64,000 nucleotides of DNA from contig SVJJ01000009.1 of the NCBI GenBank assembly GCA_015069045.1, positions 1-64,000 of the forward strand, written 5' to 3'. Below the pieces are notes generated by a model that saw only the letters and a list, made by a program, of their open reading frames with translations, had not been told where the DNA came from and ran no database searches. This document shows positions 10,971-42,892 of this stretch, one piece after another (the stretch's first letter is position 1; every line of letters begins with the position of its first letter). The stretch comes from Oscillospiraceae bacterium. Lineage in GTDB: Bacteria > Bacillota > Clostridia > UBA1381 > UBA9506. A program made the position numbers and the translations under genes.

Positions 10971-11005
10971 AAAAAATCATACGCCCTTGGGCGTGTGATT
11001 TTTTT
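10971..11005 (+). terminator. terminator after the glycosidase gene
   Basis: Stem AAAAAATCATACGCC / GGCGTGTGATTTTTT (one G-T pair), tetraloop CTTG and a T run, 20 bases after the stop codon. The symmetric A/T flanks could let it work in both directions. The rest of the gap to the tRNA (11006-11206) holds another short dyad (CGTAAAAAGG at about 11051 with CCTTTTTACG at about 11121) and no gene. Confidence 0.9.
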
Positions 11006-11171
11006 GGAAAAGCCGAACGGTTCAGATGACAAATGTACCGAAGACACACTCGTAAAAAGGTGATAGCGACAGCGAGCCGTCAAAGAGGGCGTTTACAACC
11101 AAATAGGCGAGCCGAGCGTGCCTTTTTACGAAAAAGGAGGAACAGTGAAGCGGGTGACTGATTTTTTTGCA

Positions 11172-11206: not shown

Positions 11207-11370
11207 TGGTACACCATCAGGGACTACGACTCGCTTCGCTCCCATGCATGCTACGTCCATCCAATCAACCATCGCTATTGCTCGGCTTCTTGGGGACTCC
11301 GCGATCTCACCCTACGGGTTCTCGTCCCTTTGTTTAAAAAAATCACACACCAAACGGCGTGTGATTTTAT
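11207..11370. repeat. about 160-bp element at tRNA-Lys 3' end
   Basis: The 19 bases TGGTACACCATCAGGGACT at 11207-11225 exactly repeat the 3' end of the tRNA-Lys gene (11371-11389), bracketing 145 bp of extra DNA. Read on the - strand, the insert contains CGGAGTCCCCAAGAAGCCG followed by GAGCAA and GGATGGACG. Matching segments occur in the insert next to tmRNA (42352-42507) on the + strand. It looks like a small non-autonomous element that uses RNA-gene 3' ends as attachment sites and brings its own terminator. Confidence 0.6.
11336..11368 (-). terminator. terminator directly after tRNA-Lys
   Basis: On the - strand AAAATCACAC / GTGTGATTTT with a 10-base loop and seven T residues, two bases beyond the encoded CCA. 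It lies inside the inserted element and probably now ends the tRNA transcript. Confidence 0.75.
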
Positions 11371-11446
11371 TGGTACACCATCAGGGACTCGAACCCTGGA
11401 CACCCTGATTAAGAGTCAGGTGCTCTACCAGCTGAGCTAATGGTGC
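11371..11446 (-). tRNA. tRNA-Lys (anticodon CUU)
   Basis: 76-nt cloverleaf on the - strand with encoded CCA. The acceptor stem is GCACCAT / ATGGTGT, the D-arm contains AGCTCAGCTGGTAGAGC, the anticodon loop is CTCTTAA (anticodon CTT, reading AAG) between CCTGA and TCAGG, and the T-arm contains GGTTCGAGTCC. All stems pair, with a G-T at the first acceptor position. Its 5' end faces the phage-like cluster and its 3' end faces the duplicated element. Confidence 0.95.
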
Positions 11447-11471: not shown

Positions 11472-11500
11472 ATTATACCATAGATATAAATGCTTGTCAA
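11472..11500 (-). promoter_or_regulatory. tRNA-Lys promoter
   Basis: On the - strand TTGACA (11500-11495), a 17-bp spacer and TATAAT (11477-11472), about 26 bases before the tRNA: a perfect consensus sigma-A promoter. Confidence 0.9.
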
Positions 11501-11596: not shown

Positions 11597-11890
11597 CTAG
11601 TCCTCTTTCCCCGCTTGTTTTACAAGCTGATTCACATATACCGATGCACCTGCCACCAGTACACCTTGGGTAATGCTGGAGAAAAAAGCTAAAAATATGC
11701 TTTGCAAACCGGATAGGTCCGTACTTGCAACCATAAAAAGCAAGCTGAGAACCACCCCTGCAAGACCTAAAGTCCAAGGAATGTATCGGTCAGGTACTGC
11801 ACTCTTTTTCATAGATGCGCCCAATAAATACAAAACCGGAATCAAAATAAGGAGCTCCGGTTTAATAAATTCTTTTAATAATTCATACAT
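11597..11890 (-). CDS. phage holin family protein
   Basis: Small membrane protein, 97 aa, with membrane segments at about residues 13-30, 38-58 and 64-88 and a charged C-terminus (VKQAGKED). Size, topology and position after the amidase and XhlA-like gene identify it as the holin that permeabilises the membrane so that the endolysin reaches the wall. It resembles Hol44-type Firmicute phage holins. Ribosome site AAAGGAG, well spaced. It is the last gene of the cluster. Confidence 0.8.
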   Translation of the reverse strand: MYELLKEFIKPELLILIPVLYLLGASMKKSAVPDRYIPWTLGLAGVVLSLLFMVASTDLSGLQSIFLAFFSSITQGVLVAGASVYVNQLVKQAGKED

Positions 11891-11905
11891 ATCCTTACTC
11901 TCCTT

Positions 11906-12127
11906 TTATAATTTTTCAATATACCACATAAAAAAACCGAACAAAGATGCCAAAGCCGTACCACAAACACCCCACAGAGCTTTGGTTAAGGCCGATAAAG
12001 ATTTTGTTAAATTTTCCATATTAGTTTTTAAAACCGCAATATCTGTCGTGTGTGCCTTTAATACGCCGTCACCTTTTTCCAAACGCCTTTCAATAGCTTC
12101 AAATCGTTCCTTACAAAGTTCATCCAT
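11906..12127 (-). CDS. XhlA-like lysis accessory protein
   Basis: Protein of 73 aa: an N-terminal amphipathic coiled-coil region (about 1-48) followed by one membrane helix (about 50-68) with a short WYIEKL tail. This is the layout of haemolysin XhlA proteins, which in the Bacillus PBSX prophage act with the holin in lysis. It starts one base after the amidase stop codon and precedes the holin, as in PBSX-type lysis cassettes. Confidence 0.8.
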   Translation of the reverse strand: MDELCKERFEAIERRLEKGDGVLKAHTTDIAVLKTNMENLTKSLSALTKALWGVCGTALASLFGFFMWYIEKL

Positions 12128-12128
12128 G

Positions 12129-13331
12129 TCACCACACCCCTACGTTATGTATGCGTCTATTTTCTTCTGTCCCTGTTAGTTCCTTTCCGTCCTTTAAAAT
12201 AAAACTACCACCGCCATCCAGTTTAATAGCATCATATATACCAAGCGCAACCAGCGCCCAACACATTTGATTAAATGCACATTTCATGGCAACATAAACA
12301 AGTTTGTTATGCCTTATGCCTAAAAAACCATGCCAGGTATCATATAACTCATTACCAAAATAGCCTTCAGCCTTAATTTCATCCAAACTCACTTGCTTAC
12401 CGCCAACAATAATCGGAATACCGCTAACTGCTGATTTTAGCCCCTTAATTGTAGAAAGATTGTCTGTTTTTACAATGCCACATTCACCATAATCGGTGGT
12501 GTAAACCGTTGTTAAAGCCTTCCCTGATAAATTCATCCAATTTGCGTTGTCCTTTGCCTGTGCAACGATTTTGCCATCACTTGCAAGATTTCCTACAGGA
12601 ACAGTTCTACCGCCTTTTTCTGTGGCAAAATAACCGCAATTAAAGTAGCTTCCCAAGGGAATGTCCTTCTTCTCCCTGTCGCACACAACAACCTTAAAAT
12701 CCTTTGGCTCAATCTCTTGCACATAAACCTCTTCAGGTAATTTCATAACGGTCTGTTCCACCCATGCGTCCTCCTCTTTTCCTTCAACCTTTTGCCCTGT
12801 AATGCCTTCAAAAATAGCCTTCGCAAATTCCTTTTGGTTGTTTTGTAAGAGCATGGCATCTTCTTTATTATCAATAAACGCAGTTTCCACTAAAAGTGCA
12901 GGCATTGTTGTTTTCCGCAGTACAAATAAATCCGGCCGTACCTTGACCCCCCGGTCTTGAGTGCCCAAATGCCCTACAATTGCCGATTGGATACGCTCCG
13001 CATATTCGCTTGCCTTATTCCCCTGGCTGTAAACAAGGGTTTCTGTTCCCCTGGCCTTACCATTGTAAGCATTACAATGAATAGAGATAAATAGCTCCGC
13101 CTTCCAATCGTTTGCCATTGCTACTCTGTTATGTAAAGATTCCGTCACTGTATAACCACAATTATCTTCTTTACTTGTTCTGCTTAAATGAACTGTATGC
13201 CCTGACTTTTGCAAAAGTTCCGCCAGGCAATTTGCAATTTCAACAGTGACGTCTTGCTCCTTCAGGTCGTTACCAATAGCCCCTGTATCTGCGCCACTAT
13301 AGTTGTGGCCGGCATCAATAAAAATTTTCAT
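12129..13331 (-). CDS. endolysin: amidase_3 fused to NAGPA-like domain
   Basis: Protein of 400 aa. Residues 1-175 are an N-acetylmuramoyl-L-alanine amidase of the Amidase_3 type: IFIDAGHN near the start, HCNA near 85 and LLVETAFIDN near 148 supply the zinc ligands and catalytic Glu. Residues about 205-400 resemble a phosphodiester glycosidase (NAGPA) domain, with VGNLASDG and KLDGGGS. A linker rich in Glu lies between. The amidase cuts the stem peptide from peptidoglycan; the second domain may cut a sugar-phosphate diester such as a teichoic-acid linkage, which is inference. Start ATG 13331 follows GGAGGCTTAAA and overlaps the preceding gene. Confidence 0.85.
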   Translation of the reverse strand: MKIFIDAGHNYSGADTGAIGNDLKEQDVTVEIANCLAELLQKSGHTVHLSRTSKEDNCGYTVTESLHNRVAMANDWKAELFISIHCNAYNGKARGTETLVYSQGNKASEYAERIQSAIVGHLGTQDRGVKVRPDLFVLRKTTMPALLVETAFIDNKEDAMLLQNNQKEFAKAIFEGITGQKVEGKEEDAWVEQTVMKLPEEVYVQEIEPKDFKVVVCDREKKDIPLGSYFNCGYFATEKGGRTVPVGNLASDGKIVAQAKDNANWMNLSGKALTTVYTTDYGECGIVKTDNLSTIKGLKSAVSGIPIIVGGKQVSLDEIKAEGYFGNELYDTWHGFLGIRHNKLVYVAMKCAFNQMCWALVALGIYDAIKLDGGGSFILKDGKELTGTEENRRIHNVGVW

Positions 13332-13332
13332 T

Positions 13333-13533
13333 TTAAGCCTCCGCAAACTCTTCGGCTGGCTCTTCTTCCACAGGAGCGGGACACGCCGTTACAATTTCCT
13401 CTACCTGTGATTCCGTAATGAAACCCTTGGATAGATAGGCTGCCGTCATTTCCGTTACCTTCACAAAGGGTGTATGCCCTTTTTTATACCCGTCAATAAT
13501 ACCTGCCTTTAGCCACTCACTAAAATTAAACAT
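13333..13533 (-). CDS. XkdX family phage protein
   Basis: Small protein of 66 aa with the XkdX pattern: an N-terminal WLKAGIIDGYKKG segment, then KGFITESQVEEIV, and an acidic Pro/Glu-rich tail. XkdX proteins occur between tail-fibre and lysis genes in PBSX-like and many clostridial phages; their function is unknown. The start codon overlaps the stop of the fibre gene, and AGGAGG lies upstream. Confidence 0.85.
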   Translation of the reverse strand: MFNFSEWLKAGIIDGYKKGHTPFVKVTEMTAAYLSKGFITESQVEEIVTACPAPVEEEPAEEFAEA

Positions 13534-15167
13534 TATATTGTACCTCCTAATGAAATAATAGCTTGTTTTAGCGTGTCAAGCTCGCTTTTTATGTTGTTAT
13601 ATGCAATCGTTGTATCTGCCTTATAGGTCACAGAGCAATCTGTATCGCATAAAATTGTTGTACTTGGATAGTTTGAGTGTAACGCCAATAATGCTTGCCC
13701 TGCTTCTGTATCTGTTATGTCGGTTTCGATAGGCGTTCCTAAAACATACTGCGTTTTGTCTGCGATTGATTCTGTAGTACATTCTTCTATGGACTGATCA
13801 ATTCTTTGAATATGCTTTACATATCCTTCCTTACCATTAAGAAAAATCTCATCTCTTGCTATCCAATCCCCGACTGTATTTTGTATCCCTCTTAATGTAA
13901 TGCCTGAAACGGTTACAGACTGTGGCTCTATAAACGGTTCATACTCTGTTGCTCTTTCGCCCACTTCAATTTGTCCTTGTGCTCTGTATGAAACTCTATA
14001 TGCAACATACTTAACGCCTTCGGGTACTGTTCTGTTGACAAAACCCTCACTAACATTTGTCGTCTCTCTGGAGCCATTGTAGGTTTGTACTCCAATGTCC
14101 GGCTCGTCTATAAACCACCCTTCCATATAAGCATAATTACGAGCCCCTTGCATACTTATTTTTGATATGCCTGATACTTTTGCAACGATTAACTTATAAT
14201 TCCCATTACCCGAAGTAATTATTTTACCATTTTCGTCAATACTGCCGTTGATTATTTCCTTATATACAAGGTTTTTGCCATTCACTTGAACAGTTGGATT
14301 TTCTACACTCGAAACTGCAACGGGCGCATCGGTTGTGGGCGTGCCATCCTGTGTTGATTCGCCATATACTTGTAACCGTGACAGATTTTTGTTCGCACTA
14401 TCAGTAATGCTAAAAACCTTCCCCGTTTCTGTTAAAATCTCTAACGCATCAGCCTTATTGTTAATCTCAGCTGCAGCCGTTTCCGCCCTTTCTGCTGAAA
14501 TATTTGCCTGTTCTGCCGCCTGATTGGCCTGCTGTATCGAAGCTTCACCACGATTCATCATATCGGCTGTCTCTGCTTGTCTTACTTCTTCGCTTTGCAC
14601 GCGCTGCAATTCCGCAGCGGCTCTTGCTTCTTCGGCCGAATTTCTCTCTAATTCTGATTGTATTCTGCATGTTTCTGCCGTAACACGTTCCTGCTCTGCC
14701 GGCACACATTCTTCCGATAATAATTCACATCTGTTCCCGGCAGATTCTGCACTTTCAGCAGCACATATTAATCTGGTTAACAAGGGTGATTCATCTTCCC
14801 CGGCCATGTCACCATCGCCATATCCTTTTCTCACATCAAACATCAATTCCTTCGTGGTGATATAGGTTCCCTCATCTGTAGTCAATGCCACCTCCATGCT
14901 AAGAGTTCCTTCTACAGCATAAAGGCTCTCTGCCACCTCATAAAAACCAGTCCCATCTGTATCAATAATGCCTTGGTCCACAAGAATAACATCATCCGCC
15001 CGTTTACCCTTAATAACCAACCGACACCCATCTGTATCATAAGGTTTCCCATCCTCATAAAAGAGGAAACGTAAACCATAGGCTTGCACATCCCCTGTAG
15101 TAAAAACAACGTCGTTATATAAGGTGTGCGGACCCTTTACGTCAACCCTAACTTTATATTCAATCAC
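13533..15167 (-). CDS. BppU-like baseplate/tail-fibre protein
   Basis: Protein of about 544 aa. The N-terminal 120 residues match the BppU (DUF2479) baseplate domain that docks receptor-binding proteins, with YGLRFLFYEDGKPYDTDGC and a repeated D-T-D-G pattern. Residues about 135-245 form a long alanine/glutamate-rich coiled coil (NSAEEARAAAELQRVQSEE, AEQANISAERAETAAAEI), followed by a beta-rich distal region (about 260-520) and a short helical end. Likely an adsorption fibre. GTG 15167 is preferred because GGGGGAG is six bases away; an in-frame TTG lies six bases upstream. Confidence 0.75.
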   Translation of the reverse strand: MIEYKVRVDVKGPHTLYNDVVFTTGDVQAYGLRFLFYEDGKPYDTDGCRLVIKGKRADDVILVDQGIIDTDGTGFYEVAESLYAVEGTLSMEVALTTDEGTYITTKELMFDVRKGYGDGDMAGEDESPLLTRLICAAESAESAGNRCELLSEECVPAEQERVTAETCRIQSELERNSAEEARAAAELQRVQSEEVRQAETADMMNRGEASIQQANQAAEQANISAERAETAAAEINNKADALEILTETGKVFSITDSANKNLSRLQVYGESTQDGTPTTDAPVAVSSVENPTVQVNGKNLVYKEIINGSIDENGKIITSGNGNYKLIVAKVSGISKISMQGARNYAYMEGWFIDEPDIGVQTYNGSRETTNVSEGFVNRTVPEGVKYVAYRVSYRAQGQIEVGERATEYEPFIEPQSVTVSGITLRGIQNTVGDWIARDEIFLNGKEGYVKHIQRIDQSIEECTTESIADKTQYVLGTPIETDITDTEAGQALLALHSNYPSTTILCDTDCSVTYKADTTIAYNNIKSELDTLKQAIISLGGTI

Positions 15168-15179
15168 GCGCAACTCCCC

Positions 15180-34095: not shown

Positions 34096-34270
34096 CCTTT
34101 TCACCTCACTTATCAGGTTCTCTGTCTGAAGCATAACAGAAAAAATATAAAGGCTTTTCCCGCATCACACAAGAAAAGCCTTTTCATCGCTTCAAAATGC
34201 TCTCCTCGGCGGGCGCTTTACGCGTTAGTCCCAAACGGGAACCTGCTGTCTGCGGAAATATTTAACTAAC
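34096..34270 (-). ncRNA. ribosomal protein L10 leader with attenuator
   Basis: About 175 nt between the promoter and the L10 start. On the - strand it contains CCGCAGACAGCAGGTTCCCG and later CGCCCGCCGAGGAGAG, the conserved segments of the Firmicute L10 leader, which the L10(L12)4 complex binds. A terminator-like hairpin at 34149-34183 (AAAGGCTTTTC / GAAAAGCCTTT, then ATATTTTTT) follows and can act as the attenuator. This should give feedback control of rplJ-rplL. Confidence 0.88.
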
Positions 34271-34276
34271 AAAATC

Positions 34277-42309: not shown

Positions 42310-42348
42310 AAAAGAGATAATTTTACTGACAGTAAAATTATCTCTTTT
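42310..42348 (-). terminator. terminator-like hairpin beyond tmRNA
   Basis: Stem AAAAGAGATAATTTTACT / AGTAAAATTATCTCTTTT around GAC, followed on the - strand by CTTATATGG. It probably ends the tmRNA transcript, from which it is now separated by the repeat element at 42352-42507. Between it and topB (42153-42309) nothing else is visible. Confidence 0.75.
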
Positions 42349-42351
42349 TCT

Positions 42352-42507
42352 TGGTGGAGCAGATGCTTTGATATCCGAACTTTCTCCGTTAGGACTTCCG
42401 GAGTCCCCGAAAAGCCGTTGGCTTTTTGGGGAGAAGGAAGAGCAAGGGAGTGGACGGATGTTTTCGCCATACGGCGGAAACGGAGTCAAACGCACTTTGC
42501 TCTGACG
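42352..42507. repeat. about 156-bp element at tmRNA 3' end
   Basis: TGGTGGAG at 42352-42359 repeats the 3' end of the tmRNA gene (42508-42515), and looser similarity continues (…CCGAAC against TCGAAC). The inserted DNA contains on the + strand CGGAGTCCCCGAAAAGCCG, GAGCAA and GTGGACGGATG, related to the insert next to tRNA-Lys (11207-11370) in the opposite orientation. It also contains the dyads AAAAGCCG-TT-GGCTTTTT and CGCCATACGGCGG. Confidence 0.6.
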
Positions 42508-42854
42508 TGGTGGAGACGAGGAGAATCGAACTCCTGTCCGAAAACACCGCAAATTCAGGCTCTCCGAGTGCAGCTTGTGATTAGGATTCCCCCATCTGCC
42601 AGCTCACAAGCAAGCCCACAGCTTCGGTAGCTTCATCAATACCTGGTCGGCGCAAAGCTTAACCGACTCATGTTCACTGCTTAATGATGCCCTATCCCCG
42701 ACCGCAGTCCTTCAGGGTAGGACAGCTGCCTATAATTAGGCAGCAGCTAATTCAGTGTTAGCGTTTAAATTTAAAAATTGCGGCTTTTATAGCGGCACCG
42801 CACCGCTACTCGCTCCCAAACCCTTAGTGTCCCCGTCGAAACCGTTGCGTCCCC
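42508..42854 (-). ncRNA. ssrA: transfer-messenger RNA (tmRNA)
   Basis: tmRNA of 347 nt on the - strand. The 5' end GGGGACGCAACGGTTTCGAC pairs with the 3' end CGTCTCC-A-CCA; the T-arm GGAGTTCGATTCTCC is present. The tag frame reads GCT AAC ACT GAA TTA GCT GCT GCC TAA, giving ANTELAAA if the resume codon is the first Ala; in-frame codons continue upstream, so a longer tag is possible. It rescues stalled ribosomes together with SmpB (not in this window) and tags proteins for degradation. Confidence 0.95.
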
Positions 42855-42863
42855 GACTTTTTT

Positions 42864-42892
42864 ATTATAATCTCCCTATCAACGTTTGTCAA
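42864..42892 (-). promoter_or_regulatory. tmRNA promoter
   Basis: On the - strand TTGACA (42892-42887), 17-bp spacer, TATAAT (42869-42864), ten bases before the mature 5' end. Perfect consensus, as expected for an abundant RNA. Confidence 0.92.

Follow-up and report, generated by a model that had tools for sequence, protein, structure and literature searches.

The 3′ ends of tRNA genes are classic landing sites of phages and islands, and the elements described at such ends are, to our knowledge, kilobases long and equipped with an integrase. The locus analyzed here raises the question of whether much smaller units also use the ends of structural RNA genes. In a 64,000-nt stretch of an Oscillospiraceae genome (hereafter the window), a short segment without genes separates the tmRNA gene from its terminator. 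The initial annotation had taken this segment to be an insert bounded by direct repeats, related to a second insert behind tRNA-Lys and belonging to a non-autonomous element that attaches at RNA 3′ ends. The locus comprises the following features.

42508..42854, minus strand: tmRNA gene (ARAGORN and Rfam RF00023, 158 bits), with the unit behind its CCA
42352..42507, minus strand: putative mobile unit of 156 nt, long form of family B, CGTCAGAG...GCTCCACCA, recurring at tRNA-Ala, tRNA-Met, tmRNA and a partial tmRNA-like end
42352..42359, minus strand: right end of the unit, CTCCACCA, the outer repeat of the initial annotation, kept behind tRNA-Met
42404..42432, minus strand: internal hairpin CCCCAAAAAGCC/GGCTTTTCGGGG of the consensus fold, holding a motif like one in the tRNA-Lys insert
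42486..42502, minus strand: 5′ arm of the stem joining both unit ends (consensus fold, alignment columns 6-22)
42357..42371, minus strand: 3′ arm of that stem (consensus fold, columns 138-152)
42310..42348, minus strand: displaced tmRNA terminator, a 19-bp perfect inverted repeat with a 1-nt loop and a T-rich tail

On the minus strand, the tmRNA gene ends in ...CTCGTCTCCACCA and is directly followed by CGTCAGAGCAAAG...; the sequence ...GCATCTGCTCCACCA then leads into a hairpin with a T-rich tail, 156 nt beyond the tmRNA end. This terminator is missing from a consensus terminator scan because its loop is a single nucleotide. A perfect TTGACA-17-TATAAT promoter is present both at the tmRNA gene (42864-42892) and at the tRNA-Lys gene (11472-11500), and the expected L10 ribosomal protein leader (Rfam RF00557) lies at 34138-34273.

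Two copies of TGGTGGAG, at 42352 and 42508, are spaced 156 nt apart, the second being the CTCCACCA 3′ end of the tmRNA gene. By itself this 8-nt repeat is weak evidence of an insertion, as the window contains six occurrences of TGGTGGAG or its complement (~0.55 expected). The insert is nonetheless real: relatives carry the 156-nt unit, with both borders unchanged, at other RNA genes. When the segment was used as a BLAST query against 20 genomes of the family (all drafts, with many unit copies near contig ends), full-length copies were found within the genus at tRNA-Ala in G003 and G007 and at tRNA-Met in G005 and G006. G005 carries a further copy behind a 28-nt partial tmRNA-like 3′ end beside an integrase gene, and in G019, from another genus, a copy with 79% identity follows the tmRNA and lacks the final CTCCACCA. 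Within the genus the unit is 90-95% identical to the window copy, while the alsT DNA of these genomes is 70-78% identical to that of this genome, a rough yardstick as this alsT copy may itself be mobile. Outside the window, this genome was read in stretches around such sites.

In the alignments both borders are sharp: at the CCA, gene-specific sequence gives way abruptly to unit sequence, and it resumes just as abruptly beyond the unit's own CTCCACCA. Empty sites were also found. In G013, a hairpin homologous to the window's displaced terminator stands directly after the tmRNA CCA, and in G002 the tmRNA continues straight into a flank that in G009:C2 lies behind two stacked units. The recurrence with identical borders confirms that the DNA between the tmRNA CCA and the terminator is a distinct insert. 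The reading of the outer repeat as a duplicated target is ruled out by the tRNA-Met copies, as these still end in CTCCACCA or CTTCACA; because CTCCACCA is retained there (...GGCCCACCA), this end is part of the unit.

Searching for a head pattern of family B yielded at least 120 stretches in named genomes, and the matches shown are all from Oscillospiraceae, from other Clostridia/Bacillota, or without a name. A tRNA or tmRNA called by ARAGORN directly precedes 53 of the 81 sites analyzed. The head pattern includes CCA and is biased towards RNA-gene ends, so we searched 95 genomes for an internal 22-mer of the wider family, located ~50 nt from the junction and chosen without CCA. Twelve of its 13 copies reside in tRNA/tmRNA 3′ arrays, either next to the RNA gene, in a copy stacked after another unit, or following a tRNA end missed by ARAGORN, and thus show a preference for RNA 3′ ends; the other copy (L248) is truncated, alone and away from any tRNA. 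In Oscillospiraceae, five related units behind tRNAs are uniformly 185-187 nt long and share one right end, after which a hairpin follows. The short heads of family B are strong terminator palindromes directly behind many tRNAs, and the common heads that have no clear right end could be plain terminator-bearing flanks. At L097 (G006:C4:11413-11994), a tRNA-Ala is followed by a family A unit and then by three tandem short B copies ~120 nt apart.

Recurrence at several RNA genes, abrupt borders, an empty site, and a location test free of bias towards tRNA ends together lend strong support to the idea that small non-autonomous elements attach at the 3′ ends of structural RNA genes. The window segment itself is probably such a unit, mobile and site-specific, inserted exactly after the tmRNA CCA and one of several unit families that stack at tRNA/tmRNA 3′ ends.

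As DNA, the 156-nt unit folds back on itself over its whole length, and this holds for either strand. Its ends pair from nt 6 to nt 151 in an imperfect foldback with the outermost 5 nt unpaired. Among seven sequences, four pairs of the consensus fold are changed on both sides, yet the covariation term is close to zero; support for the fold comes mainly from energy, in which no shuffled sequence equals it. The T-run is gone from the front hairpin of the window unit, and judging from the sequence tmRNA transcripts may therefore extend to the displaced terminator.

A foldback structure of both strands, combined with insertion behind CCA and no target duplication, might be expected of a MITE moved by an IS-type transposase, for example one of the single-strand IS200/IS605 kind, whose insertion behind a fixed short sequence leaves the target unduplicated. 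CCA is ubiquitous, yet the copies concentrate at RNA 3′ ends, and no parent transposon with matching ends was encountered in passing; we regard this explanation as unlikely. We give still less credence to the insert being a remnant of an ordinary genomic island at tmRNA, its interior deleted and its two ends left. An island would fit G005, where the integrase gene ends 84 nt before the partial tmRNA-like 3′ end and the 156-nt unit follows, and it would fit the common island-like left flank (CCA directly followed by TAGTAGCGTGATG...) after tRNA-Arg in this genome and after tmRNA in G001 (L108 and L032), from which it follows that one element type uses two RNA genes. However, independent deletions cannot yield an identical 156-nt unit and borders at tmRNA, tRNA-Ala and tRNA-Met, and the recurrence of the unit largely refutes the remnant. 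Finally, we find it hardly credible that the unit serves RNA genes as a functional 3′ trailer or terminator module, passed between their loci by recombination and retained because of its structure. The two-sided changes in the conserved fold and the terminator palindromes of the short family-B heads would fit such a role, but the insertion points have just 3-8 nt of homology, less than homologous recombination needs, the earlier terminator still stands behind the unit and the covariation term is near zero.

The second RNA gene to which the initial annotation pointed is tRNA-Lys, behind which two units are stacked.

11371..11446, minus strand: tRNA-Lys(CTT) gene, the second target in the window (ARAGORN, Rfam)
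11207..11370, minus strand: 164-nt family A unit, with copies of its core at tRNA-Ala, at tRNA-Asn and in C14
11005..11206, minus strand: 202-nt unit stacked behind the A unit, with relatives at tRNA-Cys (G006) and tRNA-Asn (G005)
11005-11027, minus strand: alpha-type right-end site of the 202-nt unit (alpha pattern, 2 mismatches)
10981..10994, minus strand: terminator hairpin behind the stacked units, similar to the hairpin directly behind tRNA-Lys

Family A units generally consist of a terminator, an inverted partial T-arm of the host gene, a conserved core and, in direct orientation, 18-19 nt copied from the host 3′ end; the tRNA-Lys unit has this layout, with a 19-nt copy of the tRNA-Lys 3′ end. 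Related layouts are found behind tmRNA, Ala, Asn, Glu, Arg, Gly, Leu and Lys, and both copies are usually fitted to the unit's own host gene. Complementarity of left and right ends with the own host exceeds that of permuted pairings (8 of 20,000 permutations reach it), although 3 of 13 A units have essentially none. Upstream of tRNA-Lys, at 11597-15173, lie ORFs that by eye, from their translations, resemble phage lysis and tail genes (holin-like, amidase, baseplate-like).

Of the sequences that the tmRNA and tRNA-Lys inserts had been said to share, the CGGAGTCCCC-A-AAGCCG match does exist, in opposite orientation and at 17 of 19 nt; GAGCAA and TGGACG are too short to count. The match beats all of 500 shuffles under strict scoring, and under lax scoring 21 of the 500 reach its score. 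Sister copies of either family do not keep the motif, so it is no evidence of common descent and is probably due to chance. We therefore reject homology of the two inserts as one related family: the tRNA-Lys insert belongs to a different family of like kind. As a whole, then, the initial interpretation is partly supported, and the system is wider than it proposed, in that units stack and gene-bearing segments end in similar sites.

These sites are ~24 nt long and end in CCA. Two conserved right ends, alpha (ATCTAAACCATTCGGCTCTTCCA) and beta (GCATCTATTATGAACRTGAAAGCCA), close gene-less units and in relatives also follow genes, namely those for an N6-methylase, GH3, AlsT and NeuD. The 20 genomes contain 25 alpha and 12 beta matches and no match to the reversed patterns, and 18 of the 37 matches are within 1.4 kb behind a tRNA, on its strand. 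A terminator-like hairpin comes directly after 30 of 39 unique right-end sites (2.4% at random positions), and 11 of the 39 lie 17-63 nt behind a stop codon (6.9% at random), as expected if each gene segment ends, as in integrons, with a conserved site shortly after the stop. At its own right end the window unit has neither an alpha nor a beta site.

The order tRNA-Asn, N6-methylase gene, alpha was found in G007:C1. A GH3 gene with alpha is present in two genomes in differing contexts, and Lrp-AlsT adjoins right-end sites both in this genome and in G007; at its other homologues such a site is absent. We claim no exact left borders for the GH3 and Lrp-AlsT segments, where homology fades before the upstream site. 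A contig end in this genome (L074, G000:C14:128000-140520) contains in succession an integrase C-terminus, alpha, an A unit, Lrp-AlsT, beta, an A unit, NeuD, beta and an A unit; these A units bear tRNA-Asn-like ends, with no tRNA on the stretch. In three genomes, genes for four-helix proteins like 23S_rRNA_IVP (L353:4701-5075, L354:320-661 and L356:7143-7481; PF05635 in L353 and L356, sequence similarity only in L354) come immediately after tRNA-Met and tRNA-Leu, or after an alpha site. Elsewhere, members of this family are known as insertions within 23S rRNA genes. Taken together, the right-end sites and genes suggest a cassette-like, perhaps integron-like, system anchored at tRNA ends.

A candidate recombinase lies beside the alpha site. 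Both in this genome and in G015, from another genus, a tyrosine-integrase C-terminus (the C-terminal 52 aa of a Phage_integrase-family protein) ends ~210 nt before alpha, and the region is 94% identical in DNA over 310 nt between the two. The complete integrases at C20, C22, C25 and C7 of this genome have no right-end-like site within 500 nt of their stops and were rejected as the mobilizer. A phage or plasmid source was likewise rejected: the family-B unit had no match among phages and viral contigs, nor did the alpha-site end among plasmids and viral contigs. The small units and the gene-bearing segments may depend on a common recombinase. Neither an excised circular form nor polymorphism within a species was observed.

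As a non-autonomous, site-specific unit, the window segment would have been inserted between the RNA gene and its terminator, directly after the CCA. Unit ends would be joined to RNA-gene ends in trans by a recombinase, for which a tyrosine integrase from tRNA-targeting elements is the likeliest candidate. Since the two unit ends can pair, folded single-stranded DNA is a possible substrate, as in integrons. With CCA at the end of every unit, the junction that follows would again resemble an RNA-gene end. The front terminator of most unit families would spare the RNA gene; in the window unit it looks weakened, with the displaced terminator behind the unit. Right ends may also mimic the T-loop. 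The pattern [AT]TC[GT]A with 18-nt spacing fits the Oscillospiraceae B ends and the alpha and beta sites, and is off by 1-2 nt in the window unit; we reject mimicry as a general rule and keep it as a suggestion.

More tentatively, these observations could belong to an integron-like system at tRNA/tmRNA 3′ ends, in which a dedicated tyrosine recombinase, possibly acting on folded single strands, assembles gene-less and gene-bearing cassettes into arrays across Clostridia, each cassette being closed by a ~24-nt site that imitates the tRNA end from T-loop to CCA. This is a possible reading that, taken as a whole, we consider less likely than not. Units of ~150-200 nt that pass between RNA genes, spare these genes through the terminators that most of them carry, and share loci with gene-carrying segments would amount to a far smaller mobile system at the landing sites of phages and islands, and would account for numerous unusual 3′ flanks and partial copies of tRNAs in Clostridia. 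The question that they pose, which recombinase joins the CCA end to the unit, is directly testable. A word search of the open-access literature, a weak test of novelty given its partial coverage, returned no description of such units.

Among known systems, the Tycheposons of Prochlorococcus are also tRNA-anchored with variable cargo, and are much larger. MITEs and REP/BIME elements resemble the units in being short, non-coding, foldable, present in many copies and presumably mobilized in trans. Unlike them, the units have insertion fixed at RNA-gene CCA ends and no known parent element; nor is there the target-site duplication of MITEs, as the tRNA-Met copies place the outer repeat inside the unit.

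The units share with the islands of Islander (PMC4383910) their anchoring at tRNA/tmRNA 3′ ends with the RNA gene intact, a tRNA-like end at the far border and tandem stacking. Unlike these multigene, integrase-bearing islands, they are ~150-200 nt long and gene-less. No integrase gene is found between the tmRNA and the displaced terminator, and a 156-nt unit has no room for one. The window unit's far end is its own sequence, as CTCCACCA belongs to the unit, rather than a displaced piece of its target, such as family A has at tRNA-Lys in the form of the 19-nt copy. For Islander (PMC4383910), an element must contain an integrase gene and pass a length filter, and tandems count if every member has an integrase of its own; small gene-less units would therefore escape it.

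With respect to integrons, the anchor differs, being a tRNA or tmRNA gene, and gene-less units are common. Instead of the GTTRRRY/RYYYAAC core of integrons, the junctions read CCA joined to CGTC, or ...TCTTCCA joined to the terminator. What the two have in common is an array behind one anchor, made up of small segments with foldable ends, in which segments finish with a recombination-like site shortly beyond the stop codon.
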